From Enterocloster aldenensis (GTDB lineage Bacteria; Bacillota; Clostridia; Lachnospirales; Lachnospiraceae): a stretch of 64,000 nucleotides of DNA. Below, in pieces: positions 11,081 through 52,843 of this stretch; the first letter of the stretch is position 1; the number at the start of each line of letters is the position of its first letter. The translations under genes were made by a program, and so were the position numbers. A model generated the notes under the pieces. The model was not told the origin of the DNA, did not search any database, and saw nothing but the letters and a program-made list of their open reading frames with translations. Location of the stretch: NCBI RefSeq assembly GCF_003434055.1, contig NZ_QVEX01000009.1, forward strand, positions 62,001 through 126,000. Reading direction: 5' to 3'.

Positions 11081-11728
11081 CTATCCCAGATACGTAATCA
11101 CATCCATCAGGCTGTCCATCCTGCGGGTTATCAGTTTCTGTTCCCGCTCCCCGGGTTCCACCCCATCCGGTATCATGATTACATGACATCCGGCAGCGGC
11201 CCCCGCCCTGACGCCCAGGATTGAATCCTCCAGGACAATACATTCATCCGGGCATCTGCCCAGTGCCGCTGCCGCCTTAAGGTAGATATCAGGGGCCGGT
11301 TTACCTCTCTCTACCATATCCCCGAATATCATACAGTCAAAATATCCCCTGACTCCCGCCATCTTAAGGTATTCCCTGGCAGTGGCCCCATCCGTGGAGG
11401 TAGCCAGTCCAATACCATAGCCCGAGTTCTTCAGATAACTTAAAAGTTCCATTAATCCCGGCTTCAAAGGCATTCCATTCTTTTCCAGGAACCCGTCCAC
11501 ATACTCCTGCCTGTACCTGCGTACACCATAAAAATCAAATGCTTCCCCTAACGCTTCCCTAAACACGCTGATACAGGATTCACGGTCCGCTCCCCTGGTA
11601 CGGTCTAACAGTTCCCGGGTAATGGGGAAACCGGTTGCCCTTCCGGCATACAGCCAGGCATCCCCATAAAGACGCTCCGTATCAAACATCAGCCCATCCA
11701 TGTCAAATATAGCCGCACGGATCATCAT
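11081..11728 (-). CDS. HAD-superfamily phosphatase, beta-phosphoglucomutase-like
   Basis: 215 aa. Motif I is FDMDGLMFDTE (nucleophile and acid Asp), motif II GLATSTDG, motif III KPAPDIYLKAAAALG and motif IV VLEDSILGVRAG, with the helical cap at residues ~20-85 typical of the PGMB/YhcW group. It is the last gene of module A, with an ATGA overlap with the SIS protein. In context it probably dephosphorylates or isomerises a sugar phosphate released by the deglycase, or detoxifies an accumulating intermediate. Confidence 0.88.
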   Translation of the reverse strand: MMIRAAIFDMDGLMFDTERLYGDAWLYAGRATGFPITRELLDRTRGADRESCISVFREALGEAFDFYGVRRYRQEYVDGFLEKNGMPLKPGLMELLSYLKNSGYGIGLATSTDGATAREYLKMAGVRGYFDCMIFGDMVERGKPAPDIYLKAAAALGRCPDECIVLEDSILGVRAGAAAGCHVIMIPDGVEPGEREQKLITRRMDSLMDVITYLG

Positions 11729-12870
11729 TTCTCCAGGACCGCTGTTTTCAAAAATGTATCCTCCTGGGCCACATAGTGGTCGCGCACCCCGTCCAGCTTC
11801 TTGCTGCCAATCCTTTTATGGAATTCGGGATCCTTAGGTATATCCGGATTAATCCCCAGATCCTGGGGAGCCATGCAGGCCACCACCTGAAGGGGGATGA
11901 TGTATTCCCAACAGGAGAACATGGGGTCTTCCACGAATTCCACAATCAGGTTTTTGCCAGACTGCACATCCACGCCATCCGGCGATGCAATCAGGTAGTT
12001 ATGGGGCGTCCACTCACTGAGTATCCCAACCAGTTTCATGGTCCTTGGCTTATAGTCTCCCCTGGAAGCCAGGTAGAAGATGTGGGCGCTGTCCGTGATG
12101 GAGTTATAGATACCGTGGAAAAATTCCTCTATATCATATCCGGCCACGCCCTGGCGGACTGTTTCCAGGATTTTAAGCGCGCCCTCCAGCACATCACAGT
12201 ACATGCCGTCATATCCCACGACAATCACCCTCTTTGCCGGAAGGAACTCGTCTTTAATCCTCTTATACCACTCCACGGAGGCATCCGTAACCTTTTTCAG
12301 GTTGCCGATGACCCGGAGCATGCGCTCCCTGTATCCGGCCGCCTTTTCCTCCGTGACCATGCCCTTTGCAATGGCCAGTTCCGTAAGCATCATCATGAGG
12401 GTAACGGTGGTTCCCGCGTAGCCCTTGGTCTTTGCCCCGCATTTTTCATTTCCCACCTCAATCTTAGTGGATGTGTCGGCGTGTTCAAATATAAGGGCCG
12501 TGGGGTTTTCGGACACGGCCGCCGTGTGCAGGCCCCGCTCCCTGGCGGAATCCAGGCCTTCCACCGTGGAAAGGCTCTGTCCGCCCTGGGACATGCCGAT
12601 TACCAGTGTATTCTTATTAAATACCTTTTCCTCCCTGGCAAACTGGGTGGGGTACATGTTAAATACCTTGATTCCCAGCAGCTCCTCCAGATACAGTTTT
12701 GCAGCCAGGCCGGCGTGATAGCTGGTGCCGGATCCAATCACATAAATCTGCTCAATCCCCACATCTTTGAAGCGGCTGACAAAATCCTTTGTAATCTCTT
12801 TTCTCCTGCTGATGATACCGGTCAGCGCGGCCGGTGTCTCACATATATAGTCAAACATCTTAGATTCCAT
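11725..12870 (-). CDS. Double-SIS-domain sugar-phosphate deglycase/isomerase (GfrE/GlmS-like)
   Basis: 381 aa with two SIS domains: residues ~35-165 (IYVIGSGTSYHAGLAAKLY, GMSQGGQSLSTVEGL) and ~200-340 (IVVGYDGMYCDVLEGALKI). It resembles the isomerase half of GlmS but has no glutaminase domain. YDIEEFFHGIYN is the counterpart of the catalytic Glu/His loop of FrlB/FraB deglycases. It is the fifth gene of a mannose-family PTS operon, the arrangement of Salmonella gfrABCDEF, where SIS proteins cleave 6-phosphoglucoselysine and 6-phosphofructoselysine. A deglycase for an Amadori-6-phosphate is therefore the best guess; an amino-sugar phosphate isomerase (AgaS-like) remains possible. TAATG overlap with IID. 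Confidence 0.75.
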   Translation of the reverse strand: MESKMFDYICETPAALTGIISRRKEITKDFVSRFKDVGIEQIYVIGSGTSYHAGLAAKLYLEELLGIKVFNMYPTQFAREEKVFNKNTLVIGMSQGGQSLSTVEGLDSARERGLHTAAVSENPTALIFEHADTSTKIEVGNEKCGAKTKGYAGTTVTLMMMLTELAIAKGMVTEEKAAGYRERMLRVIGNLKKVTDASVEWYKRIKDEFLPAKRVIVVGYDGMYCDVLEGALKILETVRQGVAGYDIEEFFHGIYNSITDSAHIFYLASRGDYKPRTMKLVGILSEWTPHNYLIASPDGVDVQSGKNLIVEFVEDPMFSCWEYIIPLQVVACMAPQDLGINPDIPKDPEFHKRIGSKKLDGVRDHYVAQEDTFLKTAVLEK

Positions 12871-13703
12871 TATAAAATACCAAAGAACGCGCCCACTATG
12901 CCGATGGCAATCATGCCAAACATAATCGTGGTGGTCTTAAATCCTTTCTTTAATAATGCAAATGTGCCAAAGGTCAGTCCCAGAGGAAGTACGGAAGGCA
13001 GCAGCTGGTCAAATACGCCCTGTATCTCAACGGTTGCCTCCCCCATGGTAAGCACCAGGGGCGTTGAGAAGGATACCATGGAGGCTATCATGGCCCCCAC
13101 CACACAAAGGCCCATGACCTTGGCGCAGTTCGTCAGTATTTCAATCATCCCCGATGCCTGGGCCGCTTCCACAAAGCCGACGCCGCTCTTATACCCCAGC
13201 TTTAACCCGTACCATCTGGCCACATAATGGGGGATATTAAATATCAGAAGGAACAGGATTGCCCCCAGTATGCTGCCCTGGGCCGCCAGCCCGCAGCCGA
13301 TTCCTGCCGCGATGATGCGGAAGGTACCCCAGAAAAAGGAGTCGCCGATTCCTGCAATGGGTCCCATAAGGGCTGCTTTTAAAGCTGCAATGGACTCAAT
13401 GTCAAACTGGTCGCCGGATTTCTTATTCTCCTCCTCCATGGCAATGCATGCGCCTGTGATGAAAGTTACCAGCTGAGGCGTTGTATTGAAAAAGGACAGA
13501 TGGCGTTTTAATGCCTCGGATGCCTCTTTCTTCTCCGGGTACAGGCGTTTTAATACCGGAAGGAGGGAATAACAGAATCCCACGTTCTGCATACGTTCAT
13601 AGTTAAAGGATGCCTGTAATGGGAAGGAGCGCCAGAATACACTGCGCATATCATTTTTTGTAACAATCCCGCCCTCTTTAAAAGTCTCATTGATGCCTGC
13701 CAT
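12870..13703 (-). CDS. PTS system mannose/fructose/sorbose-family IID component
   Basis: 277 aa. The opening NDMRSVFWRSFPLQASFNYERMQNVGFCYSLLPVLKRLY is the family signature, followed by HLSFFNTTPQL, the GPIAGIGDSFFWGTFRIIAAGIG loop and C-terminal membrane helices. It forms the membrane channel with IIC. Its stop shares one base with the deglycase start (TAATG), and its start likewise with the IIC stop, so translation is coupled across the operon. Confidence 0.93.
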   Translation of the reverse strand: MAGINETFKEGGIVTKNDMRSVFWRSFPLQASFNYERMQNVGFCYSLLPVLKRLYPEKKEASEALKRHLSFFNTTPQLVTFITGACIAMEEENKKSGDQFDIESIAALKAALMGPIAGIGDSFFWGTFRIIAAGIGCGLAAQGSILGAILFLLIFNIPHYVARWYGLKLGYKSGVGFVEAAQASGMIEILTNCAKVMGLCVVGAMIASMVSFSTPLVLTMGEATVEIQGVFDQLLPSVLPLGLTFGTFALLKKGFKTTTIMFGMIAIGIVGAFFGIL

Positions 13704-14494
13704 TATAATTCACCTCCCAAATCATCAGACATTGTGTTAGCTGCCAGGGATGCCATGTCCCGTTTTCTCTGCATGGCCTGCTGGTAAACCACGTAGGCAA
13801 TGGTAGCGCCCACAATCGCCACACCTACCGTACTCATACCCAGCAGGGCGGTCAGTACAAATCCCACAAAAAGATATGCCGCATTGGTCTTATCAAATAT
13901 AAGCTGCATAAGGATTGCGATTCCCAGTGCAGGAAGCATCCCGCTTGCCACCTTCAGTCCGCCCAGGATGAACGGAGGCAGGGCAGCCACAAAACCGGCT
14001 ATGGTATTGGAGCCAAGCAGTACGCCCAGGAACACCACCAGGAAGGAACTGAACCAGAACAGCCACGCTCCTGCCCACAGCGCTTTTGAGATTCCCTTGT
14101 AATCCCCTTCCTCAGCCGCCTTGTCAGCCCAGTGCAGGAAGGTGGTATTAATGGTCCTGTCCAGGATGCCCACGGACTGGGCCAGTGTTGCGATTGGCAG
14201 TGACAGGGCCACGGCCGCATCCATATCAAGGCCTGACATGATGGCAAATGCCGTTGCCAGAATGCCTCCCGAGACCACGTCCGGCGGGGTCGCCGCGCCA
14301 ATGCCCACAATCCCCATCATGACCAGTTCCAGGGAAGCCCCCATCACGATGCCTGTATGTATGTCCCCAAGAATCAGACCTACGATGGGACCAGTCACAA
14401 TTGGCCGGTCAAACATATGCTGTCCGCATACACGGCCGTCCCAGATGGCAAAACCTGCAAGGATTCCCAAAATTAATGCTTTAAACAACATCAC
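13703..14494 (-). CDS. PTS system sorbose-family IIC component
   Basis: 263 aa, polytopic. The segment DRPIVTGPIVGLILGDIHTGIVMGASLELVMMG is the EII-Sor signature, and GAATPPDVVSGGILATAFAIM follows. About seven hydrophobic helices are visible. With IID it carries the sugar derivative across the membrane while IIB phosphorylates it. Confidence 0.93.
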   Translation of the reverse strand: MMLFKALILGILAGFAIWDGRVCGQHMFDRPIVTGPIVGLILGDIHTGIVMGASLELVMMGIVGIGAATPPDVVSGGILATAFAIMSGLDMDAAVALSLPIATLAQSVGILDRTINTTFLHWADKAAEEGDYKGISKALWAGAWLFWFSSFLVVFLGVLLGSNTIAGFVAALPPFILGGLKVASGMLPALGIAILMQLIFDKTNAAYLFVGFVLTALLGMSTVGVAIVGATIAYVVYQQAMQRKRDMASLAANTMSDDLGGEL

Positions 14495-14507
14495 ACATTC
14501 CCCCTTT

Positions 14508-14993
14508 TTACTTGTTGTATTCTTTCACAATGTCCTCATAGGACAGTTTCTTTTCAGTGGGCACTGCCTGGAGATACACATCCTTTCCCATGGCATGGAT
14601 TTCTTCCAGTCCCTTCATATCCTTGCCATCCAGGTATACCTGGCGTTCCACCATCTTCTTTCCCGGCGCCTGGCGGATGCCTCCCACACACAGATTGGTG
14701 ATAGACGGACATTTCCCCATCAGGTACTGCGCATCCTCCACACTTGCCGTTACCACGAAAATGGTCCTGGCCGCATGCTTCGGATTATTGATGACAGCCA
14801 CAGCGCCATCCATGGATTTAATGGACAGCACGGCCTGCGGAGGTTTTGCCATGTTAAACGCCATCTGCATCAGCTTATCCGTAATGGCCTTGTCATTGGC
14901 AACCACAATGGTGTCAGCTCCCAGATAGGAAGTCCAGCTGACAGCCACCTGTCCATGGATTAAACGGTCATCTACCCTCAATAACTTAATCAT
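14508..14993 (-). CDS. PTS system mannose/sorbose-family IIB component
   Basis: 161 aa, full length. The phospho-accepting His lies in RVDDRLIHGQVAVSW (His ~15). The strands around IVVANDKAITDKLMQMAFNMAKP and the C-terminal KKLSYEDIVKEYNK are typical. AGGAGG precedes the ATG. It passes phosphate from IIA to the C6 hydroxyl of the incoming substrate. Confidence 0.93.
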   Translation of the reverse strand: MIKLLRVDDRLIHGQVAVSWTSYLGADTIVVANDKAITDKLMQMAFNMAKPPQAVLSIKSMDGAVAVINNPKHAARTIFVVTASVEDAQYLMGKCPSITNLCVGGIRQAPGKKMVERQVYLDGKDMKGLEEIHAMGKDVYLQAVPTEKKLSYEDIVKEYNK

Positions 14994-15044
14994 TCCTTTT
15001 CCTCCTACGGTTTTCTAAAAACACTGCTGTGTTCCTTTCTTTCC

Positions 15045-15494
15045 TTACAGTTCACCCAAATCCCCGGGGGCATCCGTATCTGTTTGGGATTCCACCAGGT
15101 CATTCACCAGATACATGGATGCCCTGGAATTCTCAATAGCCATGCGCAGCATTCCCTTGTCGGCGTCTTCCCCTTCTCCCAGCGGAAGCAGCGCTATCTC
15201 CAAAAGCAGCCCCAGGTTCAGCCCTGTTACCAGATACACCTTCCGCCGGTTTCCCAGCAGTTGCATGGCTGCCTGGGTGGTGCTCCCGCCTGCGATATCC
15301 GTAAGCACCACCGTGGGGTCAGTGCCGCCAAAGCCTGTGACTTTTTCCTCAATCATGGAAGCTATCTCAGGTATGGTTTCCTTTGCCGTGATGCTCACGT
15401 AATCCACGTGCCCCACCTGTCCCAGCACCAAATCCAGGGATGTCAGGATTCCCCTTGCAAAATCCGCATGGGTGACCAACACCATATTTTTCAT
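15045..15494 (-). CDS. PTS system mannose/fructose-family IIA component
   Basis: 149 aa from the ATG at 15494, which follows AGGAGGG; the frame is open upstream but that stretch (to 15557) lies in the promoter leader. LVTHADFARGILTSLDLVLGQ carries the phosphorylated His (~8). GGSTTQAAMQLL matches the second active-site loop. The usual GG/SHG motif is replaced by THADFA. First gene of module A. Confidence 0.9.
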   Translation of the reverse strand: MKNMVLVTHADFARGILTSLDLVLGQVGHVDYVSITAKETIPEIASMIEEKVTGFGGTDPTVVLTDIAGGSTTQAAMQLLGNRRKVYLVTGLNLGLLLEIALLPLGEGEDADKGMLRMAIENSRASMYLVNDLVESQTDTDAPGDLGEL

Positions 15495-15575
15495 TGCCAG
15501 CCCTCCTTTCTGTGTATTTGTATTTCTATTTCCTTCCTCAAACCAGGTCATTTGCATATATCTTTCGCTTTTCTT

Positions 15576-15750: not shown

Positions 15751-16461
15751 ATGTCAGGCAAGCCTAAGTATATACAAATAGAAGATTCCATACTCAATCA
15801 GATAAAAGGAGGAAACCTGCGGCCTGGTGACCAGATTCCCACCGAGGCAGAGCTGTGCGACACGTTTATGGTCAGCAGGATGACTGTGAATAAAGCCATC
15901 CAATCCCTTGCATCTAAGGGTTATATCAACCGCGTGGCAGGCAAAGGCAGCTTTGTGACCAATGTACATATACAGAAACCCATTGTAAAGATACCTCAGA
16001 GTTTTTCAGAAGACATGCGCTCCATTGGCCTGACTCCCGGTTCCCGGCTGGTGGATTACAGGATATACCGGGGAAGCGAACTGCCCGAAGCCGCTGCCCA
16101 GGCCCTGAACGTGGCCAGGGACGACATGGTGCATTATTTCTCCCGCATCCGTACCGGCAATGACATGATAATCTGCATCAGTTATACCTATGTCCCCTGC
16201 AGGGTCCTTCCAGCCATTGATGTAACCCGGCTGGAGCACTCTTTTTTTGAATATGTAAAGGAACTTGGGTTAAATGTACAGTCCATGGACCTGTCATTGA
16301 CAGCCACGCTGCCCACTGAGGAGCAGAAAAGGCTGCTGGGCATAGAAAATGAGGCGCTGCTAAAATCATTCCACAATACGTATCTGGATAATGGGGATAT
16401 ACTGGAATATATTGAGACCTATTATATCGGGAGTATGTATACCTATCGGGTTACCCTCTGA
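15751..16461 (+). CDS. GntR-family (HutC subfamily) regulator of module A
   Basis: 236 aa. An N-terminal winged helix (residues ~5-70; LRPGDQIPTEAELCDTF, SRMTVNKAIQSLASKGYI, GKGSFV) precedes a UbiC-transcription-regulator-associated domain (residues ~90-230) that binds small effectors. AAAAGGAG sits before the ATG. It is divergent from the PTS operon across a 256-bp gap and is the obvious local regulator, probably sensing a phosphorylated intermediate. Confidence 0.9.
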   Translation: MSGKPKYIQIEDSILNQIKGGNLRPGDQIPTEAELCDTFMVSRMTVNKAIQSLASKGYINRVAGKGSFVTNVHIQKPIVKIPQSFSEDMRSIGLTPGSRLVDYRIYRGSELPEAAAQALNVARDDMVHYFSRIRTGNDMIICISYTYVPCRVLPAIDVTRLEHSFFEYVKELGLNVQSMDLSLTATLPTEEQKRLLGIENEALLKSFHNTYLDNGDILEYIETYYIGSMYTYRVTL

Positions 16462-16567: not shown

Positions 16568-17581
16568 TCAATACTCCATCTGACGGTAATATCTTCTGGT
16601 TGTAAGCGGATGGTTCCTCTCCTTCTCCAGGTGGCAGCTGAGACGCTCTGTCATGGCGTACATCACCATCGGGGAAACAATCTTCCTGTACTCAGCATCG
16701 GTGAACGGCAGTTCAATCTCCTTGGTATCAAACACATTGATTACCTTTGTCACCTTCTTGGAGAAATCCATCACACGGTCCATCAGGGGTCTTGTCTCAT
16801 CCTCGCCATAGAACAGGATTAGGCTTGTATCCTCTTCCACCAGTTCCAGGGTCCCATGGAAGTATTCGGCTGCGTGGATGGACTTTGTTTTAATCCACTG
16901 CATCTCCTCCAGGATACACATTGCATAGTCGTAGGCCTCTCCCCACATCATGCCGGCGCCGATTACCATGTGATAATCCGTATCCTTGTGCTCCCTGGCC
17001 ATGTCCGCGCATCTGGCCTCGTACTGCTCCTTCGCCTTAATCAGGTACGGCACAATCTTTGCATACTGATCCATGAATTCTTCGTACTTGTCAAATTCCC
17101 CTGCGTTTTTCTTAAATCTTGCCAGAAGGGCAATCATGTAGGTGTAAATGGCTTCGCACAGGCAGTCGTCCTCTGCAAAGCTGAACAGCTTGTAGTCCGC
17201 ATACTCACAGACCGGGGTATTGTCATTGGACACATATACAATGGTGCGCGCCCCGGCTTCCTTACAGTACCTGGCAGCTGCTACGATTTCCTTTGTATTG
17301 CCGCTTCTGGTGGAGAATACGCATACGGAATCCTTGGTGAACTTCCTGTGTCCCGCTGCCATGAACTCAGCCGCAATCACACTGTATGTATCAATCTGTG
17401 ATGTGGTGTCCAGCCAGTACTTCATGGGAAGGGAATGGGCATATGTGCCGCCGCAGCCAATAAAGAAAATATTGGTATAACCCTGGCTGCATATCTCGTC
17501 CACTGCTTTCTCAATCTGCGGCCTTAAGGCAATTGCGTCGCCGACTACTTTTTCGTAACGTGGAATGTCAAAATTAAACAT
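16568..17581 (-). CDS. SIS-domain Amadori-6-phosphate deglycase (FrlB/FraB family), module B
   Basis: 337 aa. SIS domains lie at residues ~30-160 (NIFFIGCGGTYAHSLPMKYW, CVFSTRSGNTKEIVAAARY) and ~195-320. The loop SIHAAEYFHGTLELVEEDTS carries the conserved Glu and His of the deglycases, and the C-terminus HPLTTRRYYRQMEY matches the FraB/FrlB ending. The family cleaves 6-phosphofructose-lysine or -asparagine into glucose-6-phosphate plus the free amino acid. Known FraB uses phospho-fructose-aspartate, FrlB phospho-fructoselysine; I cannot separate these by eye. It has its own promoter and forms a single-gene unit next to a divergent GntR gene. The protein at 43794-44807 is a ~91% identical paralogue. 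Confidence 0.85.
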   Translation of the reverse strand: MFNFDIPRYEKVVGDAIALRPQIEKAVDEICSQGYTNIFFIGCGGTYAHSLPMKYWLDTTSQIDTYSVIAAEFMAAGHRKFTKDSVCVFSTRSGNTKEIVAAARYCKEAGARTIVYVSNDNTPVCEYADYKLFSFAEDDCLCEAIYTYMIALLARFKKNAGEFDKYEEFMDQYAKIVPYLIKAKEQYEARCADMAREHKDTDYHMVIGAGMMWGEAYDYAMCILEEMQWIKTKSIHAAEYFHGTLELVEEDTSLILFYGEDETRPLMDRVMDFSKKVTKVINVFDTKEIELPFTDAEYRKIVSPMVMYAMTERLSCHLEKERNHPLTTRRYYRQMEY

Positions 17582-17736: not shown

Positions 17737-17800
17737 AAGGATTCCTGCCCGGGACGGATTCGGACACAGCGCCCCACAGGGCAGAATGACGGTGATATTT

Positions 17801-18526
17801 ATGATTCATTTTGATGCAGGCAGCATAGACCCTTCCAGTATTACCCCCATGTACAAGCAGGTGGCCGGCATTATTTCCGAAGGCATACGCACAGGGGAAC
17901 TGAAGGTAGGAGAAAAGCTTCCTTCTGAGTTCGAACTGATGAAGGACTTTAACGTAAGCCGCGTGACCATCCGGGGCGCAATCTCAGAACTGGTAACGGA
18001 CGGGCTTCTGGTGCGCAGCCAGGGAAAGGGCACCTTTGTGGCGCCGCAGAAAAAGCTCCAGTCCGCCAATGATACCACCGGACTGACCGATTCCTGCCGC
18101 CAGGCCGGCAAGGTGCTTAAGTCCCAGGTGCTGTCCGTGGAGTACGCTTATCCCACCCATGCCGACAGTGAATTCCTGGCTGTTGATGAGAGCCAGCAGG
18201 TCATTGAGATCAAACGGCTCCGCTACATAGACGGACACCCGTCCATTTTGGAAACACTCTACTTCCCAAGAAAGTATGATTTCCTTCTCCATGAAAACCT
18301 GGAGGGGTCCGTGTTCTCAATTTTGCACGCCCATGGCATCACGGTGCACAACAGCAGGAGGACCCTTGAAATCAGCAACGCATCCTCCAATGAGGCCGGA
18401 CTGCTGGAAATCAAGCGTAACTCCCCCCTGCTGCTGTTCAGGGATTACCAGTCGGACAGCCAGGGCAATCCCCTGTTTGTCTGCAAACAGCTCTACAATA
18501 CCCAGAACATGATATTCTACTTATAA
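17801..18526 (+). CDS. GntR/HutC-family repressor of module B
   Basis: 241 aa from the ATG at 17801, chosen over 17786 because it aligns with its paralogue at 52118, which is also exactly 241 aa. The winged helix is at residues ~10-75 (LKVGEKLPSEFELMKDF, SRVTIRGAISELVTDGLL, GKGTFVAP), then the UTRA effector domain (to FYL). The recognition helix is nearly identical to that of the 52118 protein, so both should bind the same DNA. Its 3' end overlaps the convergent frlC stop region with only the shared TTATAA between them. Confidence 0.9.
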   Translation: MIHFDAGSIDPSSITPMYKQVAGIISEGIRTGELKVGEKLPSEFELMKDFNVSRVTIRGAISELVTDGLLVRSQGKGTFVAPQKKLQSANDTTGLTDSCRQAGKVLKSQVLSVEYAYPTHADSEFLAVDESQQVIEIKRLRYIDGHPSILETLYFPRKYDFLLHENLEGSVFSILHAHGITVHNSRRTLEISNASSNEAGLLEIKRNSPLLLFRDYQSDSQGNPLFVCKQLYNTQNMIFYL

Positions 18527-19357: not shown

Positions 19358-19386
19358 CTGTTTCCTCCTTGAACCATCCGGTGTAA

Positions 19387-21485: not shown

Positions 21486-21487
21486 GA

Positions 21488-43696: not shown

Positions 43697-43713
43697 ACAA
43701 CTTCCTTTCCCCA

Positions 43714-43750: not shown

Positions 43751-43793
43751 GCGTTCCATCCGGATTCCCTTAAGCGGGCGGATGCTTATATGA

Positions 43794-44807: not shown

Positions 44808-44862
44808 GTTTTCCTACCTCCTGTAATATGAAATAGTTCATTATATATTGTCCTATGTCGTT

Positions 44863-44891
44863 ATAATATAACATATAATATATTTTGTAAA
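44863..44891 (-). promoter_or_regulatory. Promoter and operator of module D deglycase
   Basis: On the minus strand -35 TTTACA (44891-44886), 17-bp spacer, -10 TATTAT (44868-44863), with the dyad GTTATATTATAAC over the -10. Matches the module B deglycase control region, including the flanking TTTACAAAA.. and CATAGGAC segments. Confidence 0.72.
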
Positions 44892-44911
44892 GTACTATTT
44901 GATTTTTAATT

Positions 44912-45742
44912 TCATAAAAACTGTTTTACATAATTAAACCCTGATTCCGTGGCCTCATGTGGATTGGCACAGCAGGATGTGTCCCCGATTTCCAGGGTAA
45001 TGTATCCCTCATATCCCAGCTGCCCCAATTCGGAGATATACGCACCGATGGGATGCTCCCCTGTGCCGCAGGGTACGTGGCCCGCAGGGGTCCCGTCCGT
45101 CATGTGGAAATGGCATATGCGCCCAGGGAACGCCTCAAAAAACTCCGGTATGCTGCTGCCGCAGGTACGCATGGGAACCGTGTCCAGGCATAATTTAAAA
45201 CACGGGTCCTGGATTTCCTCCATCATACGCCTGGTGGAGTCAAAGTCATGGACCAGGTTGCTCTCAAACCTGCCCAATATCTCAAAGGCCAGCGTCACAT
45301 TTGCCCTTTTTGCGCGCTCCACCATGGACCACAGGCTTTCCACGGAACGTTTCCATGCCTCTTCCCTGTCCTGGTCATAGTCTCCCCAACCCGCGCAGCA
45401 CAGCATCTTATCCACGCCCAATTCTGCTGTCTGGTTGATGTATTTATAAAAATACTCCAGGCTGAACCGTCTCAGTTCCCTGTCAGACGATGCGATATTG
45501 TGAGGGTACAGCACCTGTTCCGGGGTCAGGCACACAATCTTAAGCCCCCTTAATCCCACCTCTTTCCTGAGTTTTCCCGCATCGCTGAGGCTTTGGATGA
45601 AATGGCAGAAATGGGGGGCGCCGGCCCAGAGCTCAAACTGCCCTACCCCCATCCGCTCCAGCGAGTCCAGGAAATATGTAAATGAATACCTGTTATACAC
45701 CATGTTCATGGCTGCCAATTGGCTCCGTCCTATTTTTCCCAT
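44912..45742 (-). CDS. FrlC-like sugar isomerase/epimerase (AP-endonuclease-2 TIM barrel)
   Basis: 276 aa. MGVGQFELWAGAPHF replaces the FrlC GIEIWGGRPHAF signature, so it is a relative with a changed pocket. VTLAFEILGRFESNLVHD (metal Glu), KLCLDTVPM (Asp), ICHFHMTDGTPAG (His) and YEGYITLEIGDTS (Glu) complete the metal site. Last gene of the ChvE-GguAB operon of module D, the same position as frlC in module B. Probably epimerises or isomerises the imported conjugate. Confidence 0.82.
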   Translation of the reverse strand: MGKIGRSQLAAMNMVYNRYSFTYFLDSLERMGVGQFELWAGAPHFCHFIQSLSDAGKLRKEVGLRGLKIVCLTPEQVLYPHNIASSDRELRRFSLEYFYKYINQTAELGVDKMLCCAGWGDYDQDREEAWKRSVESLWSMVERAKRANVTLAFEILGRFESNLVHDFDSTRRMMEEIQDPCFKLCLDTVPMRTCGSSIPEFFEAFPGRICHFHMTDGTPAGHVPCGTGEHPIGAYISELGQLGYEGYITLEIGDTSCCANPHEATESGFNYVKQFL

Positions 45743-45757
45743 ATTTCCTCCAGATAT

Positions 45758-46831
45758 TTAGTTCAGCATATCCTTTGAATAGTAACCGCTGTCAAAAAGC
45801 AGCTCATCGCAGTTATCTTTATCAAGGGCCTTTGGTATGACCAGGGTAGCCTTCACATCCTTTACCCCATTGTTGAACGTGGTGTAATTCTCCAGCTTGG
45901 GTTCCTCCCCTTTTACAAGGCTGTCAATCACGTCAGCCGCATTTTTCGCCAGCACGCTGATGTCCTTAAAGACGGTCATGGTCTGTTCCCCGGCCAGAAT
46001 GGACTTGATGGAGGCAATGTCACAGTCCTGCCCCGTGGTAATAGGAAGGGGCATGTCGGAAGAACCATAACCAACGGATTTAAGGGAGGAGATTGCGCCC
46101 AGTGCAATTCCGTCATTCTGGGTCAGGACAGCGTCCAGACGCCGGTCCGTATAATAGGTGCTTAAAATGGAATCCATCCTGGACTGGGCCTTGGATCCAT
46201 CCCATTCAGGCGTTCCGCAGACCGCAAATTCAACCTGGCCGCTGGGTACCACCAGGCTGCCGTCATCCAGATAGGGGGAGAGCACATCCATTGCGCCTTT
46301 ATAAAAGTAAGTAGCGTTATTATCAGCCGGGTCGCCTGCCACAATCTCGATATTAAAAGGACCTTTTCCTTCTGCAACGCCCAGGTGGTCCACAATGTAC
46401 TGGGCCTGGCAGGCCCCGATGCCCTCCAGATCATCTGCGCTGTAATAGTCGATATAATCCGTGTTCAGGCACAGGGAATCATACGAAATGACCGGGATAT
46501 TATTTTCATGGGCAAGCTCTATGACCTTTGTCATGGAAGAGCTGTCAAAGGGCGATATGATCAGGCCTGCCACCCCGCTGGTAATCATGTTCTCAATGGA
46601 CGATGCCTGGATGTTGGCGTCGCCCTTGCCAAACTGGACATTTACCTCATACCCCATTTCTGTCAGGTATTTTGTCAGATACTCCTGGTCCTTCTGGGTC
46701 CTGGCCAGATCCTGGGTGGGAAGGGATACGCCGATGACCTTCTTTTTTGAGCTGCTGCAGCCGCCCAGGGCCATTGCCGCCATGCCCAGGACCATACACG
46801 TTGCCATCAGTCTTCTTGTGGTTTTCTTCAT
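45758..46831 (-). CDS. ChvE/XylF-type sugar-binding lipoprotein, module D
   Basis: 357 aa. Lipobox ALGGC (Cys ~25). Peripla_BP_4 fold with KVIGVSLPTQDLARTQKDQEY, SGVAGLIISPFDSSSM, ISYDSLCLNTDYIDYYSADD and EIVAGDPADNNATYFYKGAM, the last being the ChvE signature (GSPDDNNA). Partners of ChvE bind pyranose aldoses, but here the operon carries a PfkB kinase and FrlC-like enzyme, so a sugar conjugate is plausible. Confidence 0.9.
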   Translation of the reverse strand: MKKTTRRLMATCMVLGMAAMALGGCSSSKKKVIGVSLPTQDLARTQKDQEYLTKYLTEMGYEVNVQFGKGDANIQASSIENMITSGVAGLIISPFDSSSMTKVIELAHENNIPVISYDSLCLNTDYIDYYSADDLEGIGACQAQYIVDHLGVAEGKGPFNIEIVAGDPADNNATYFYKGAMDVLSPYLDDGSLVVPSGQVEFAVCGTPEWDGSKAQSRMDSILSTYYTDRRLDAVLTQNDGIALGAISSLKSVGYGSSDMPLPITTGQDCDIASIKSILAGEQTMTVFKDISVLAKNAADVIDSLVKGEEPKLENYTTFNNGVKDVKATLVIPKALDKDNCDELLFDSGYYSKDMLN

Positions 46832-46875
46832 CTTTTTTCCTCCTCTTTTTCTGGTCTGCTAAGCAGACCTGGAAT

Positions 46876-48042
46876 TTAATTTTTACCTTTTGCTTTTGCC
46901 CTGATATCAAATGTTACCGCCAGCAGGAGTATGAAGCCTTTTATTACCTGCTGCATATCTGTCCCGATTCCCAGTATGGACATACCGTTGTTAAGGACCG
47001 CCATGACCGCGGCGCCTGTAATCACGCCGATGATGCTGCCGGCGCCTCCGGAGGCCGCGCATCCGCCTATGTAACAGGCAGCAATGGCATCCAGCTCGTA
47101 TGAGGTCCCGGCCTTGGAGGTGGCCACATTCAGGCGGCTGGTAACCACGATGCCTGCAATGGTAGCCATGAAGGAACAGTTTACATATACAAGGAACATG
47201 ATGAGCCTGGTCTTTACGCCCGACAGCCTGGCCGCGTCCGCGTTTCCCCCGACCGCATACACATGGCGGCCCACCGGCGTCTTATCCGCTATATACGTAT
47301 AAATCAAAGCAACAATAATCAGGATGATCAGTATAAAGGGGATTGCGCGGTACATTCCCAGTCCCATAAGGATGGCGCCCACTGCCAGCAGGACAGCGGC
47401 CAGCTTTGCCGCCATGATCTTGGCGGAAGATACCTCAAACCCATATTTAATCCTTGCTTTCCTTTTATTCTGTTCCGCCAGGATAATGGCTGCGGCAGCC
47501 GCTGCGAACAGCAGCACGCACAGGATATTGATACCGCCGGCCTTCATATCCGTTCCAACAAAACCAGAGGAAAAGTACTGGAAACTTTTGCTGAAGGGCG
47601 ACAGGGACTGTCCCTGCAGGATTACCATGGTCAGACCGCGGAAGATAAGCATGCCGGCCAGGGTCACGATAAATGGCGGTATATTTAAAAAGGCGATGAA
47701 ACATCCGTGGAACACGCCGATCAGCAGGCCGCACACCAATGTGACAATCACAGCCACAGGGGTCGGCACATTGTGTTCCACAATCATGAATCCAAGAAGC
47801 GCCCCGGAAACACCGACCACCGAACCCACCGACAGATCCACATTGCCTGTCAGGACACAGAAAAACATACCGATTGACAAAAAGATGATGTAGCTGTTCT
47901 GCATGAATATATTGCTGATGTTCATCGGCTTAAAAAGCACCCCGCCTGTTACGGTTCCGAAAAACAATGTGATGAGCACCAGCGCAATTATCATTCCATA
48001 CTGCCTTAAATTGATGGCAGGAATCTTTTTATTATTTTTCAT
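46876..48042 (-). CDS. Sugar ABC transporter permease (GguB/XylH type), module D
   Basis: 388 aa, longer than RbsC, as in the GguB/XylH branch, with an extra helix-plus-linker block (residues ~175-215, rich in Ala and Lys). NISNIFMQNSYIIFLSIGMFFCVLTGNVDLSVGS and the YIGGCAASGGAGSIIGVITGAAVMAVLNNGMSIL C-terminal signature. 3 bp after the ATPase stop. Confidence 0.91.
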   Translation of the reverse strand: MKNNKKIPAINLRQYGMIIALVLITLFFGTVTGGVLFKPMNISNIFMQNSYIIFLSIGMFFCVLTGNVDLSVGSVVGVSGALLGFMIVEHNVPTPVAVIVTLVCGLLIGVFHGCFIAFLNIPPFIVTLAGMLIFRGLTMVILQGQSLSPFSKSFQYFSSGFVGTDMKAGGINILCVLLFAAAAAAIILAEQNKRKARIKYGFEVSSAKIMAAKLAAVLLAVGAILMGLGMYRAIPFILIILIIVALIYTYIADKTPVGRHVYAVGGNADAARLSGVKTRLIMFLVYVNCSFMATIAGIVVTSRLNVATSKAGTSYELDAIAACYIGGCAASGGAGSIIGVITGAAVMAVLNNGMSILGIGTDMQQVIKGFILLLAVTFDIRAKAKGKN

Positions 48043-48045
48043 GAC

Positions 48046-49584
48046 TTAACCCACCTTACTATTCTGCATGATTGCATTCATTATATTTACCTGCGCAATC
48101 TCGTTTCCTTCCAGTTCACCTACCACATAGCCTTCATTCATGATGTATGTGCGGTCACACATCCCAAGTATCTCCGGCATGTCCGATGAAATCAATATGA
48201 CCGACTTACCCTGGGCCACCATCTCATTGATTACCTGGTATATCTCATATTTTGCCCCCACGTCTATGCCCCGGGTGGGTTCATCCAGGATCAGCACATC
48301 CGAACCCGCCAGCACCCATTTGCTGAATATGACCTTCTGCTGGTTCCCGCCTGACAGCTTGGATACATCCTGTTCCACGTTATAACACCTGATACTCAGT
48401 TTTTCCCTGTATTCATTTGCAGCCACCACCTCTTTGTTGCTGTTAATGGTGCCTCTTTCCACAAAGTTTCCCAGGCTGGGCAGGGTGATGTTATTGGTAA
48501 TGGACTGTCCCTGTATCATCCCGTATGCATGGCGGTCTTCTGATACGTAGGCAATCCCGTTTCGGATGGCCTCCGGCACATTGCGGACCTGTATGGGGTT
48601 TCCGTTCATCCGCAGCTCACCGGATATATCCGTCCCGTAGCTCCTGCCGAAAATGCTCATGGCCAGTTCCGTCCTGCCTGCGCCCATCAGGCCTGCAATC
48701 CCAAGGACTTCCCCTTTCCTCACATACATGCTGATGTCGTGGAGTATCTGCTTTCCTGCGATTACCGGGTCATATACGTTCCAGTTCCTGATTTCCAGGC
48801 TTACGCCGCCAATGGCGCTTTCCCTGGCCGGAAACCGGTTGGTCAGCTCCCTGCCCACCATGCCCTTGATGATGCGGGCTTCGGTTATCTCATCCACTCC
48901 TTTGTATAAAGTCTCTATGGTTTCCCCGTCCCGGATAATGGTAATTGCATCGCAGACCTTTGTGACCTCCCTGAGCTTGTGGGAAATCAGGATGGATGTA
49001 ATGCCCTGTTCCTTAAATTCCTGTATCAGGTTCAGCAGGGTGTCGCTTTCCTCGTCATTGAGCGCAGCCGTAGGTTCATCCAGGATAAGAAGCTTCACAT
49101 TCTTTGATATGGCCTTGCAGATCTCCACCAGCTGCTGTTTGCCCACTCCGATGTTCTGTATCAGGGTATCCGGGCTTTCGTGAAGCCCCACAATGCCCAT
49201 GAAACGTGCTGCCTCCCGCCTGGTCCGGTTCCAGTCAATGGACACGCCCCTTTTTATTTCATTTCCAAGATATATGTTCTCCGCAATGGAAAGGGACGGT
49301 ATGAGGGCAAGGTGCTGATGGATGATTACAATCCCTTCTTTTTCACTGTCTCCAATGGAGCGGAACCTGCATTCCCTGTCATTGTAGTAAAAGTTCCCCT
49401 CATAGGTCCCCTGCGGATATACGCCGCTGATGATATTCATCAGGGTTGATTTGCCAGCCCCATTTTCACCGCACAATACGTGGATCTCCCCGCGCCTTAC
49501 ATTCAGTGAGACATTCTCAAGCGCCGTGACATTGCCGAACCGCTTAACCACCTTGTCAATCCTGAGTATGTAATCCTCTGGCAT
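48046..49584 (-). CDS. Sugar ABC transporter ATP-binding protein (GguA/XylG type), module D
   Basis: 512 aa from the ATG at 49584, preceded by AAGGAGG; a TTG 18 bp upstream is the alternative. Walker A GENGAGKSTLMNIIS, the QGTYEGNFYYNDRECRF segment peculiar to GguA/XylG, signature IGVGKQQLVEI, Walker B LLILDEPTAAL; second half GLMGAGRTELAMSIFG, LSGGNQQKVIFSKWV, DEPTRGIDVG. Confidence 0.92.
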   Translation of the reverse strand: MPEDYILRIDKVVKRFGNVTALENVSLNVRRGEIHVLCGENGAGKSTLMNIISGVYPQGTYEGNFYYNDRECRFRSIGDSEKEGIVIIHQHLALIPSLSIAENIYLGNEIKRGVSIDWNRTRREAARFMGIVGLHESPDTLIQNIGVGKQQLVEICKAISKNVKLLILDEPTAALNDEESDTLLNLIQEFKEQGITSILISHKLREVTKVCDAITIIRDGETIETLYKGVDEITEARIIKGMVGRELTNRFPARESAIGGVSLEIRNWNVYDPVIAGKQILHDISMYVRKGEVLGIAGLMGAGRTELAMSIFGRSYGTDISGELRMNGNPIQVRNVPEAIRNGIAYVSEDRHAYGMIQGQSITNNITLPSLGNFVERGTINSNKEVVAANEYREKLSIRCYNVEQDVSKLSGGNQQKVIFSKWVLAGSDVLILDEPTRGIDVGAKYEIYQVINEMVAQGKSVILISSDMPEILGMCDRTYIMNEGYVVGELEGNEIAQVNIMNAIMQNSKVG

Positions 49585-49602
49585 CCAGGTGCCTCCTTTC
49601 AA

Positions 49603-50034
49603 TCATGATTCACCCATTATTTCTACGTAGACCGTCCTGCTCTGGGCGCCGTCAAATTCACAGAAAAAGATTTCCTGGGCGTCCCCCCGGACCATTTTAC
49701 CGTCCCATACCGGGAAAACCGCATGGTTTCCCGTAAGCATGGCCCTTAGGTGGCCTGTGGGGTTTCCGGCCGTTGTGCCGTAGGAATGAAGCATCCTGCT
49801 GTGGGCATAATGCCCATATTCCGGAACCAGCCTCCACAGCATATCCTTCATGTCGCTCTGCAGGCATTCCAGGGCCTCGTTGGCAGTGATGCCTGTTGTT
49901 GTATGGGCTGTCATCACAAGGGCCATCCCCTCCCTGATCCCGGACTGTTCCACCAGTTCCTCCACCCGGTCCGTTATATTGATGAAATCATTGTATTTTG
50001 TTGTATGGATCACGAATTTCTCTAACCTAACCAT
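49603..50034 (-). CDS. yjbQ: YjbQ/UPF0047-family protein
   Basis: 143 aa, usual length. ALVMTAHTTTGITANEALECLQ and EYGHYAHSRMLHSYGTTAGNPTGHLRAMLTG hold the three His and the Glu of the conserved metal-like pocket. The E. coli protein has weak thiamine-phosphate synthase activity; the real role of the family is unsettled. It overlaps the amidohydrolase start by 13 bp and lies upstream of the ChvE-type transporter, so it is part of the module D operon. A repair or hydrolytic role on a sugar or amine adduct is possible but unproven. Confidence 0.88.
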   Translation of the reverse strand: MVRLEKFVIHTTKYNDFINITDRVEELVEQSGIREGMALVMTAHTTTGITANEALECLQSDMKDMLWRLVPEYGHYAHSRMLHSYGTTAGNPTGHLRAMLTGNHAVFPVWDGKMVRGDAQEIFFCEFDGAQSRTVYVEIMGES

Positions 50035-50885
50035 GCCTGTTCCCTCTCTCCCAGGAATACCAACGCGTTGTCCTCTGTTATGAGTCCCACGGTTTCATCC
50101 CGCAAACCAAGTCTTTTTAAAGCTGCCAGCATCCTCATCTCCTCAAACCTGGGCATATTGGAACCGAACATCACCTTGTGGCGCAGGCTGCGGTCCAGCC
50201 ACCCGTATCCCAGCTCCTGCTGAAACAGATATCCGTAAAATTCATAAGCGCTGTCAAAGTACAGGGCCGACGTATCCGCATACACATTGGGATACTTGAG
50301 GATCATCATGGCTGTTTCCTTCACCCATGGGAATCCCATATGGGCCAGGCAGAAACGCAGTTTTGGGAAATCCAGCGCAACCTCCTCAAAGTTCAGGGGA
50401 TGGGAGTACTTTGCCAGTGTTCCCGGCTGCCATGTGAACCCTGCGTGGAACAGAATCGGCTTGTTATATTTCACACATGTTTCGTAAAGGCCGTACATCT
50501 TTTTGTCATTGGGATAAAAGCCCTGTTTGGAGGGGTGAAGCTTCAGCCCCGACAGGTTCAGTTCCCTGAACGCATATTCCAGTTTTTCCCCCGCATCCTC
50601 CTGATTGGGGTCCACGGAGGCAAACCCATAAAACATCCCCTCCCCCAGTTCCACCAGGTCCTTCATTTCCTCATTGGAAATCCGGTCGCCGGACACCGTG
50701 GAGTAATCATGGGGAAGAAGGAAGCACCTGTCAACTCCGGATGACCTCATCCGTTCCTTGATCCGCTTTACCTCAGCAACCCCGGTCTTATAATATGCCA
50801 TATCGTTTCTGCGCCTTTGGGCCAATTCCTCATTCCCGCAGACCTCTTTTATGAATGCAGGATGATAGTGTGCATCGATTACCAT
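50022..50885 (-). CDS. Amidohydrolase-2-like TIM-barrel metal hydrolase
   Basis: 287 aa. MVIDAHYHPAF gives the HxH-like first metal motif (HYH), LSGLKLHPSKQGFYPNDKKMY contains the barrel Lys/His, ILFHAGFTWQPG the next His, LRFCLAHMGFPWVKE another, and MFGSNMPRFEEM the region of the last Asp (here N instead of the usual D in GSDxP). Family PF04909 includes decarboxylases and lactonases. In the module D operon it could act on a sugar lactone or carboxylate; the GSNMP change may alter or abolish metal binding. Confidence 0.8.
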   Translation of the reverse strand: MVIDAHYHPAFIKEVCGNEELAQRRRNDMAYYKTGVAEVKRIKERMRSSGVDRCFLLPHDYSTVSGDRISNEEMKDLVELGEGMFYGFASVDPNQEDAGEKLEYAFRELNLSGLKLHPSKQGFYPNDKKMYGLYETCVKYNKPILFHAGFTWQPGTLAKYSHPLNFEEVALDFPKLRFCLAHMGFPWVKETAMMILKYPNVYADTSALYFDSAYEFYGYLFQQELGYGWLDRSLRHKVMFGSNMPRFEEMRMLAALKRLGLRDETVGLITEDNALVFLGEREQAWLG

Positions 50886-50895
50886 ATTGTCCTCC

Positions 50896-51840
50896 TTATT
50901 TAGCTGCTTTGTGATTCCGTATGAATCCGTCCACTTCTTCCCTGTATAAGGCGCCTTCCATGGGGCCTACATACATGGCCTGGAGGGCGCCGGCCGCATT
51001 GGCTAACGTACCCGCGTCCCGGATGCATTGTCCTTCCACAAGCCCTGTAATGAACCCTGCGCAGAATGAATCACCGCATCCGGTGGGGTCCTTCTCCTCT
51101 ATGTGGAATGCAGGGATATGGCATACTCCTTCTGCTGTATAGACGTCACAGCCCGCGCAGCCCTTTTTCAGCACCACCGTCTTCCCCTGGGCAGCCAGGC
51201 CCCTGCATGCCTCCTCATCCGTATCCGTGCCCATCATCCTCCCCGCCTCCCCTTCACTGGGCAGGATAAGGTCGGCCCTGGTTATGAACGGCTTCATGAT
51301 ATCCATGATACCTGGTTGGTCATCCACGAAATTCGGGTCAAGACATACCCTGCTGTCAGCCGGTATGGCCTCCAGCAGCCTGAGCATTGCCTTTCTCCTG
51401 CCCACGTCGGATGCGATGCAAAGCACCTCCCCGCTGAAGTGTATCCACCTTGCTTCTTTCACGGCTTCCGCACAGATATCGCTTTCATTAAAATCGGAAA
51501 ACGCAGTGTGCTCCATCACATTCAGGTATTCCCGTTTCCCATCCTTATCATATCTTACAAAAACAATTGCCGTGGATGCCCCATCCACCTTCCTTACATG
51601 TGACAGGTCAATCCCATCCCGCTCCAGCCGGTTTAACACCACGTCTGAAAATGCGTCTGTGCCCGCGGTTCCCAAAAAGCAGCACTTTAACCCCAGCCTG
51701 GACGCAACATCTAAAACAATACATGTATCCCCGCTTGGATAAGGGCCGGTAAAATCAGCTGGTTCTTCAAAGGAAACCCCTCTTTCCTTCCGCATGATTT
51801 CAACAATAGGAAAACCGACTGTTAACAAATCATACTTCAT
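50896..51840 (-). CDS. PfkB-family carbohydrate kinase, module D
   Basis: 314 aa from the ATG at 51840 (GGAGGTG upstream; the frame to 51873 is promoter). PSGDTCIVLDVASRLGLKCCFLGTAG, STAIVFVRYDKDGKREYLN, VVLKKGCAGCDVYT and the signature DPTGCGDSFCAGFITG with catalytic Asp, where the usual GAGD is GCGD. It is closer to ribokinase/KDG kinase than to FrlD. First gene of the module D operon, so it probably phosphorylates the sugar brought in by the ChvE-GguAB importer. Confidence 0.87.
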   Translation of the reverse strand: MKYDLLTVGFPIVEIMRKERGVSFEEPADFTGPYPSGDTCIVLDVASRLGLKCCFLGTAGTDAFSDVVLNRLERDGIDLSHVRKVDGASTAIVFVRYDKDGKREYLNVMEHTAFSDFNESDICAEAVKEARWIHFSGEVLCIASDVGRRKAMLRLLEAIPADSRVCLDPNFVDDQPGIMDIMKPFITRADLILPSEGEAGRMMGTDTDEEACRGLAAQGKTVVLKKGCAGCDVYTAEGVCHIPAFHIEEKDPTGCGDSFCAGFITGLVEGQCIRDAGTLANAAGALQAMYVGPMEGALYREEVDGFIRNHKAAK

Positions 51841-51878
51841 TGCTTCACCTCCAACACCATTTATTGTCCTCATATGTC

Positions 51879-52030: not shown

Positions 52031-52070
52031 TTGCCAAAAGCTGATTTATGTTGTATTATAATGTATTAAG
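52031..52070 (+). promoter_or_regulatory. Promoter and operator of module D GntR gene
   Basis: -35 TTGCCA (52031-52036), 17-bp spacer, -10 TATTAT (52054-52059) within TTGTATTATAATGTATTAAG, the clearest copy of the shared operator. Same layout as 17696-17736. Confidence 0.78.
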
Positions 52071-52117
52071 AAAGGATTTTTGCCAAAGACTATTTTGGTA
52101 TGATTAAGGTGAAGCAT

Positions 52118-52843
52118 ATGTTTAATTTCGATTCAAACAGCATTGACCCCACCAGCATGATTCCTCTGTATAAGCAGGTCGCCAATGTGATAACCGAAGA
52201 GATTGACATGGGAAACATAGCCGCCGGGGAAAAACTCCCCTCCGAACTCCTGCTCATGAAGGTTTTCAATGTCAGCAGGGTGACCATCAGAGGGGCAATC
52301 CTGGAATTGGTGTCGGACGGGCTTTTAATCCGCAGTCAGGGAAAGGGAACCTTTGTGGCCCCAAAGAAAAAGCTTCAGTCTGCTAACGATACAACAGGAC
52401 TTACCGAGTCCTGCAGGCGCCTGGGCAAAGAACTGCACTCCCAGGTGTTATCAGCTGGTTATTCCTATGCGACAAAAGCCGAATGTGATTTTCTGAAAAT
52501 TGATGAAAGTGAACAGATTATAGAAGTGGTACGGTTAAGGTTTATTGACAGACGCCCCACCGTGATTGAGACATCCCACTTTTTAAAGAAATATGATTTC
52601 CTTCTCCATGAGAATCTGGAAGGTTCCATCTTTGAATGCTTCAACAAACACGGAATATCCGTACATACCAGCCAGCGGACCCTGGAGATATCCACTGCCA
52701 CTGCCTATGAGGCGGAGCTGCTTGAGACAAAGCGCAATTCCTCCCTCCTGCTGTTCAGGGATTTCCAGTCAGGCGGGTTTGATACCCCGCTGTTCGTTGC
52801 AAAACAGCTGTACAATACGCAGGATATGGTTTTTTATTTATAA
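52118..52843 (+). CDS. GntR/HutC-family repressor of module D
   Basis: 241 aa from the ATG at 52118 (AAGGTG upstream; a further in-frame ATG at 52100 is weaker). GEKLPSELLLMKVFNVSRVTIRGAILELVSDGLL and GKGTFVAPKKKLQSANDTTGL are nearly identical to the module B repressor, while the UTRA domain diverges more. Divergent from the module D operon. The two repressors should compete for the same operators and differ in effector. Confidence 0.9.
   Translation: MFNFDSNSIDPTSMIPLYKQVANVITEEIDMGNIAAGEKLPSELLLMKVFNVSRVTIRGAILELVSDGLLIRSQGKGTFVAPKKKLQSANDTTGLTESCRRLGKELHSQVLSAGYSYATKAECDFLKIDESEQIIEVVRLRFIDRRPTVIETSHFLKKYDFLLHENLEGSIFECFNKHGISVHTSQRTLEISTATAYEAELLETKRNSSLLLFRDFQSGGFDTPLFVAKQLYNTQDMVFYL

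Follow-up and report, generated by a model that had tools for sequence, protein, structure and literature searches.

A 42-kb locus of Enterocloster aldenensis as a probable multi-importer system for sugar-amine adducts

Why would one genome carry four sugar importers side by side, together with four enzymes that may split sugars from amines? The question is raised by a block of ~42 kb (positions 11081..52843) in the window analyzed here, a stretch of 64,000 nucleotides from Enterocloster aldenensis (assembly GCF_003434055.1, contig NZ_QVEX01000009.1, positions 62,001 to 126,000) with a guanine and cytosine content of 51%. Family scans place in it four sugar importers and four candidate sugar-amine-splitting (deglycase) enzymes, here called SIS1 to SIS4. 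According to passages of PMC4697335 and PMC12675984, glycated amino acids enter with the diet and feed commensals and pathogens alike. We consider it likely that the block is a multi-importer locus for sugar-amine adducts (Amadori and probably also Heyns compounds); it is a variant assembled from known parts. Judged by their genes, the most fitting reading takes operons B, C, and E as candidate Amadori routes and operon A as a candidate Heyns or amino-sugar route, while block D is a possible source of glycated peptides. We relied on families, phylogeny, conserved residues, gene order, and the recurrence of one gene pair, and from these we infer substrates, reactions, and regulation throughout, as well as what Amidohydro_2, YjbQ, and block D do.

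Every gene coordinate named in the original prediction, which had been made from the DNA letters and their open reading frames, is an open frame, and family scans bear out its two mannose-family phosphotransferase system (PTS) and two CUT2 sugar ATP-binding cassette (ABC) routes. The genes of these routes are as follows.

11081..15557, minus strand: operon A, with a HAD phosphatase-like gene, SIS4, and mannose-family PTS IID, IIC, IIB, and IIA
11081-11728, minus strand: HAD phosphatase-like protein of operon A (family scan)
11725-12870, minus strand: SIS4 of operon A, a double-SIS protein on the GlmS/GfrE side in trees
15557-12870, minus strand: mannose-family PTS IIA-IID of operon A (family scan)
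16568..17581, minus strand: SIS1, a GfrF-type deglycase encoded on its own and divergently from the operon B GntR gene
18521..23931, minus strand: operon B, with an FrlD-like kinase, CUT2 ATPase, permease, RbsB-like binding protein, and FrlC-like epimerase
18521-19357, minus strand: FrlC-like TIM-barrel epimerase of operon B
22972-19456, minus strand: CUT2 sugar ABC importer of operon B (family scan)
23029, minus strand: FrlD-like PfkB kinase of operon B
24162..29218, minus strand: operon C, with mannose-family PTS IIA-IID, SIS2, an FrlD-like kinase (24812), and a HAD gene (24162)
25699-26697, minus strand: SIS2 deglycase of operon C
29218-26728, minus strand: mannose-family PTS IIA-IID of operon C (family scan)
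42887..51873, minus strand: operon E, with a kinase, Amidohydro_2, YjbQ, a GguA/GguB/ChvE-type ABC importer, a TIM barrel, SIS3, and a Cof HAD gene
42887, minus strand: Cof HAD of operon E (family scan)
43794-44807, minus strand: SIS3 deglycase of operon E
44912-45742, minus strand: TIM-barrel epimerase-like protein of operon E
49602-45758, minus strand: CUT2 ABC importer of operon E, GguA/GguB/ChvE-type (family scan)
49603-50034, minus strand: YjbQ/UPF0047 of operon E
50022-50885, minus strand: Amidohydro_2 of operon E
50896, minus strand: TagK-like PfkB kinase of operon E

The reference set for the SIS proteins comprised E. coli FrlB (L096), a K. pneumoniae FraB (L097), E. coli GlmS and AgaS, six Protein Data Bank (PDB) chains, the gfr-type operons of plasmids from K. 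pneumoniae (L098) and E. faecium (L094), and Collinsella (L099). Two trees of 37 and 41 rows were built; Subd_SISb (wrong frame) was dropped from both and AgaS (long branch) from the second, and the tree program warned that GlmS and FrlB form long branches. SIS1, SIS2, and SIS3 fell inside the FrlB/FraB/GfrF clade, apart from GlmS (100/99 in both trees), and within it inside the GfrF subclade (99/99 in the 37-row tree, 100/99 in the 41-row tree). The alignment agrees with what had been predicted for these three proteins: the loop Glu and His, presumably catalytic as in FraB, align in all four SIS proteins, and SIS1-3 also keep the C-terminal RRY..EY. SIS1 and SIS3 share 91% identity, each is 37% identical to SIS2, and all three are 25-27% identical to E. 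coli FrlB. Because their scores against the FrlB equivalog NF008481 of NCBIfam (85.6-94.2 bits) lie below its cut-off of 430, we file them as GfrF-type rather than FrlB. Among PDB entries, SIS1 and SIS2 are closest to 8glr and 2a3n, the latter of which we take to be Salmonella STM4540 (GfrF); 3eua, presumably from B. subtilis and named in the PDB a ‘putative fructose-aminoacid-6-phosphate deglycase’, ranks lower in both lists. SIS2 pairs with a protein of a Liquorilactobacillus plasmid (49% identity, 99/96) on which PTS, SIS, and PfkB genes follow the same order as in operon C. An origin of SIS1 and SIS3 from different sources was rejected, as the two are sisters (98/92) in a tree of SIS1-type deglycases.

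Other enzymes encoded in operons B and C fit the same reading. The TIM barrel at 18521-19357 matches FrlC best among five NCBIfam models (224.8 bits, cut-off 305), and FrlD is the best NCBIfam model for the kinases at 23029 and 24812 (163.3 and 166.4 bits, cut-off 247). Of the two FrlC-type isomerases and three PfkB kinases first proposed, one is thus a fair FrlC candidate and two are FrlD-like, with scores below the cut-offs; their counterparts in operon E, treated below, are a weak FrlC match and a TagK/IolC-like kinase. In operon B, the CUT2 importer would bring the intact ketosamine inside, the FrlC-like enzyme would epimerise C3 forms, and the FrlD-like kinase would phosphorylate O6, after which SIS1 would split the ketosamine 6-phosphate into glucose-6-phosphate and the amine. 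SIS1 had been placed on the operon B transcript; this was rejected because the two are separated by a GntR gene (17786-18526) of opposite orientation. In operon C, the PTS would import and phosphorylate in one step and SIS2 would split the product, while the FrlD-like kinase may phosphorylate adducts that arrive unphosphorylated. The ChvE-type importer of operon E may feed SIS3, an enzyme of the SIS1 type, via the TagK-like kinase, and Amidohydro_2 and YjbQ may contribute a further reaction, possibly one that converts ring forms or cleans up the adduct or its phosphate. The PTS of operon A would supply SIS4, probably a Heyns-type 6-phosphate deglycase yielding fructose-6-phosphate, and block D may supply glycated peptides.

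The part of the block that a specialist would least expect is the set of kinase, Amidohydro_2, and YjbQ genes in operon E. Amidohydro_2 (50022-50885) was searched at E 1e-40 in 397 genomes of the family of Clostridiales bacterium 1_7_47_FAA, which is Lachnospiraceae by inference, and was found at 20 places in 19 genomes; in a draw of 299 phylum genomes at 1e-30 it was found in G001 and one other, G438. YjbQ adjoins it at all 21 places (the 20 family places and G438). An FrlB-type SIS gene (E 1e-20) lies within 8 kb of the pair at 18 of the 20 family places, where chance would give ~0.006 per place (25 SIS hits in ~66 Mb); a binomial probability computed on this basis takes no account of kinship. 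A SIS hit at this threshold is present in each of the 19 pair-bearing genomes, although the one in G256 is probably GlmS because it has 22% identity in a 642-aa frame, which leaves 18/19 credible. Drawn family genomes had a SIS hit in 8 of 50 cases, and in 4 of 46 once four pair-bearing genomes were removed. Every YjbQ (E 1e-6) lies in a pair in 17 of the 19 genomes; extra copies occur in G001 (one) and G167 (three).

We also selected loci by SIS. Six SIS1 peptide patterns were run against 84,980 species, one genome each, giving 108 relatives; the 80 best loci were retained, and six of these contain the pair (L001, L002, L004, L010, L016, and L077). L077, from Bacillus, has the order kinase, Amidohydro_2, YjbQ, CUT1-like importer, SIS, FraD-like kinase. 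Sets similar to operon E occur in L001, L004, L010, and L016; L001 and L016, whose sequence begins within the set, showed no kinase. In L004, where the relative of operon E has a TagK-like kinase, a DeoC/LacD-type protein (9157-9933) is encoded between YjbQ and the deglycase; it might hint at a galactose-derived (tagatosyl) adduct. Separately, L176 (3461-4612) and L182 (905-2008) encode SIS4-like proteins beside a FraD-like kinase, a FraB-like deglycase, YjbQ, and Amidohydro_2.

A PfkB kinase accompanies the pair on the same strand at each of 18 places measured, within 100 bases at 14 and within 1.5 kb at all 18, and is adjacent in G001, G307:C10, and G438. A quick tree of 56 kinases drew on L166-L183 (18 loci) and on 20 loci from the SIS-selected set of 80; rows of at least 420 aa, with coverage of at most 70%, or at most 90 bits were left out, so the pair kinases of L170 and L171 are absent. 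Seventeen rows from 17 loci form one clade (Shimodaira-Hasegawa approximate likelihood-ratio test support 99) apart from the kinases beside deglycases; 16 are labelled as near Amidohydro_2 and one (L166) is 1.5 kb away. Five further ‘near’ rows are FraD-like and come from compact loci, and the label needs six changes across the tree. In the window, 1_7_47_FAA, L004, and L010, a TagK-like kinase takes the place of the pair kinase.

YjbQ (49603-50034) passes the curated cut-off of TIGR00149 (111.3 bits, cut-off 67.75), and H44, H78, H95, D128, and R133 are kept in 24/24 sequences; its predicted structure, with a mean predicted local distance difference test of 64.7 from five sequences, was set aside. 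The window protein thus belongs to YjbQ/UPF0047 and stands out by its genome context, which ties it to deglycase loci and a PfkB kinase. Amidohydro_2 has the fold and Pfam family of its name, and its predicted fold matches 3irs and 3cjp, both uncharacterised, and then ACMSD-type decarboxylases; such matches indicate no function. The metal motif of the family consists of HxH, two further His, and a last Asp. The window protein has the four His, with Asn in place of the last Asp.

We know of no settled biological role for YjbQ/UPF0047. Among the matches listed from the open-licence PMC literature, none had YjbQ in the title or abstract and no mention of the kinase/Amidohydro_2/YjbQ set was found; neither YjbQ with amidohydrolase nor YjbQ with fructoselysine turned up in that literature. 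We tentatively propose, at a little under even chances, that Amadori catabolism has an accessory branch, so far undescribed, made up of PfkB kinase, Amidohydro_2, and YjbQ, in which YjbQ acts on a (phospho)ketosamine or a breakdown product. We hold just as tentatively that, in such a branch, the amidohydrolase-fold partner, with a metal site eroded in part of the family, would support YjbQ. If so, the locus would show one deglycase type re-used behind interchangeable importers. It offers in any case a directly testable context for YjbQ/UPF0047.

Several observations weigh against these readings. SIS4 adjoins the group of GfrE-position proteins in both trees without being nested inside it, and is 24-26% identical to those of K. 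pneumoniae and E. faecium. In operon E, FrlC is the best NCBIfam model for the TIM barrel at 44912-45742 yet scores 89.2 bits (cut-off 305), and tagatose and psicose 3-epimerases lead the list of its PDB matches; the PfkB kinase (50896) resembles TagK/IolC (211.1 bits for tagatose kinase versus 48.7 for FrlD, which is not its best model), and the best NCBIfam matches of the importer are ChvE/GguAB, family names that stand for plain monosaccharide uptake. The presence of a kinase gene inside PTS operon C also counts against them. Importer swapping around the deglycase is not free, as importers of one type group together on the tree of deglycases. The last metal Asp of Amidohydro_2 is missing in 23/24 sequences, and at least one metal His is lost in 6/24, the four His being present in 18/24. 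No SIS gene was found within 8 kb of the pair in G240 and G256, or in the 12 kb read in G438, whose contig has ~1.9 kb of sequence ahead of the pair, and 74 of the 80 SIS-selected loci are without the pair.

The alternative that survives best concerns operon A, in which a GlmS/NagB-like SIS4 would deaminate or isomerise a PTS-imported 2-amino-sugar 6-phosphate, unrelated to glycated amino acids. We regard it as a serious contender, if somewhat the less probable one. SIS4 falls on the GlmS/GfrE side of both trees, in a clade of its own with 3g68 and 3knz (97/97 in the 37-row tree, 89/89 in the 41-row tree), and lacks both the RRYY..EY tail and kinship to FrlB; the idea that all four SIS proteins are FrlB-type was rejected on this ground. 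The original prediction of four deglycase-type proteins stands for SIS1-3, in the GfrF subclade, but is less secure for the protein at 11725: a grouping with AgaS or GlmS, named in advance as speaking against Amadori substrates, is not seen for SIS1-3 and is seen for SIS4. SIS4 scores 135.4 bits against a GlmS model and 65.4 against NagB-II, and the PTS IIC, IIB, and IIA of operon A fit galactosamine/N-acetylgalactosamine models best, all below cut-off, as does the IIC of operon C. Its relatives number one genome (G001) among 398 phylum genomes at E 1e-90, two (G001 and G154) among the 397 family genomes at E 1e-60, and 217 in a protein search at 1e-30; among the 120 matches listed from the latter, four have the Joint Genome Institute (JGI) name ‘glucosamine 6-phosphate synthetase-like’. 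However, the GfrE-position proteins of gfr-type operons sit on the same side of the tree, the relatives in L176 and L182 (33% identity) adjoin FraB, FraD, YjbQ, and Amidohydro_2 genes, and among the matches listed one relative of 67% identity carries the JGI name glucoselysine-6-phosphate deglycase, an annotation only. By these comparisons, SIS4 is a Heyns-type deglycase at best and possibly an amino-sugar enzyme.

Do the importers take different adducts? It is conceivable, though we think it unlikely, that all of them take fructoselysine, as redundant routes suited to different concentrations or conditions. The importers within 9 kb of SIS1-type genes were surveyed in 43 of the first 45 loci, those with a full SIS1-type gene (L039 and L040, with no full SIS, were dropped); both 1_7_47_FAA copies were included, and PTS genes most like those of operon A were left unscored. 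Ten loci have a PTS, seven a B-type CUT2 importer, five a ChvE-type importer, and 21 another or none seen; that of L007 and L011 is SBP_bac_1/BPD_transp_1, CUT1-like. The four labels need nine changes on the deglycase tree (minimum three) versus 19.5 when shuffled, and importer type is therefore partly inherited. The deglycases of L015 (CUT2) and L016 (ChvE) are nevertheless 100/99 sisters on very short branches, with different importers. Redundancy would suit such very similar deglycases behind different importers in other genomes, as it would the 91% identity of SIS1 and SIS3. Against it, the SIS1 and SIS2 types share 37% identity and are found near each other, on one strand, in eight further loci (L003, L007, L009, L011, L013, L014, L026, and L039), and this divergence side by side argues for different jobs. 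As for the proposed discrimination of several glycated amino acids, the importers could plausibly provide it. The deglycases alone do not separate four compounds, because two of them are near-identical. We suggest that a change of importer around one deglycase type helps to set substrate range. A strain with four candidate uptake routes would be useful for assigning an adduct to each.

Operon E might instead serve a plain monosaccharide (through ChvE-GguAB, a TagK-like kinase, and an epimerase), a second deglycase copy having landed next to it. This would accord with its best NCBIfam and PDB matches and with the sister relation of SIS3 to SIS1, but is improbable given that L001, L004, L010, L016, and 1_7_47_FAA also combine an operon E-like set with a SIS1-type gene and that the Amidohydro_2/YjbQ pair also occurs in deglycase loci without a ChvE-type importer.

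The multi-importer reading can be set against known systems. In Salmonella gfrABCDEF, which has a mannose-family PTS, the text of PMC12675984 has GfrE acting on glucoselysine-6-phosphate and GfrF on fructoselysine-6-phosphate, a figure legend there gives these substrates in the other order, and a gfrF mutant is described as retaining some growth on fructoselysine. Operon C shares with gfr a PTS and a GfrF-type SIS, and operon A a PTS and a SIS of the GlmS/GfrE side, whereas the block has two separate PTS operons, extra kinase and HAD genes, and a SIS4 that is not nested with GfrE-position proteins. The gfr-type operons of L094 (an E. faecium plasmid, with IS1216 on both sides) and L098 (a K. 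pneumoniae plasmid) have sigma-54 regulators, whereas the block has GntR regulators. E. coli frlABCDR resembles operon B, with its FrlC-like epimerase, FrlD-like kinase, and FrlB-family deglycase; it has the FrlA permease where operon B has an ABC importer, and SIS1-3 are GfrF-type. By its description in PMC4697335, the Intestinimonas AF211 cluster AF_00949-00955 likewise combines ABC importer, kinase, and deglycase, with one such cluster described. The fructoselysine operon of Faecalibacterium prausnitzii, as described in PMC12136445, has a PTS and GfrF without GfrE, as does operon C, but is a single seven-gene operon with one gene without homology to gfr genes. An earlier BLAST search, described in PMC9330393, had already pointed to fructoselysine kinases in Lachnospiraceae, Enterocloster asparagiformis among them.

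The block is conserved as a whole in one relative. All 42 genes of 11081..52843 are colinear in Clostridiales bacterium 1_7_47_FAA (84-99.6% identity; aligned DNA pieces ~88-94% identical over the shared block), where L002 and L042 of the SIS1 scan lie 27 kb apart. It was not found whole in any further genome by the SIS1 scan or the genus and family searches, although a split copy could be missed because many records of the scan are short contigs of draft bins. Among 17 genomes of the genus of 1_7_47_FAA no other match over the full length exceeded 46% identity (a broken piece of 131 residues reached 49%), and five of the 397 family genomes had a match at E 1e-120, two matches occurring only in 1_7_47_FAA. 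The 80 SIS-selected loci have one FrlB-type gene in 35 cases, two in 28, three in 16, and five in one. The block had been called not a standard locus, which is fair for the whole, found once more, but not for multi-FrlB-type neighbourhoods, which are common. The locus with five is L036 of an Oscillospiraceae bacterium, with consecutive FrlB-type SIS genes (9986-15295), TIM barrels, and a CUT2-like importer.

The remaining genes of the block are regulators, block D, and two single genes. Peptide importer and peptidases (32137-39166, 40138), like the amidohydrolase and YjbQ genes (49603-50885), were absent from the original list; the separate regulators it described are found as GntR genes at operons A, B, C, and E.

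15751..16461, plus strand: GntR/HutC-type regulator, divergent from operon A (family scan)
17786..18526, plus strand: GntR regulator between SIS1 and operon B (family scan)
29381..30988, minus strand: two GntR regulators upstream of operon C (family scan)
31246..39166, minus strand: block D, with a GntR/FCD regulator, a PepV-type dipeptidase (32137), and an Opp peptide ABC importer
40138..41499, plus strand: M20-family peptidase (family scan)
41598..42563, minus strand: URO-D/MtaA-like protein (family scan)
52100..52843, plus strand: GntR/UTRA regulator, divergent from operon E (family scan)

AT-rich palindromes lie upstream of the operons, and five of six tested recur exactly in 1_7_47_FAA, which says little because the flanks of both genomes are so alike. 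Neither an Rfam scan (gathering threshold) nor a tRNA scan gave a match anywhere in the window. To the left, 3946-10803 holds a second Opp importer and an acetamidase/formamidase-type gene, and three genes tested there are kept beside the block in 1_7_47_FAA; an open frame overlapping an Opp gene (8625-9158) matches DUF6783 (PF20574) over 53 residues. To the right, ~8.7 kb (52868-61581) are missing from the matching place in 1_7_47_FAA, and 52955-61224 encodes a GATase1-like protein, M20 and M28 peptidases, a CUT2 ABC importer, an RbsD mutarotase, and a LacI regulator, with no kinase seen.

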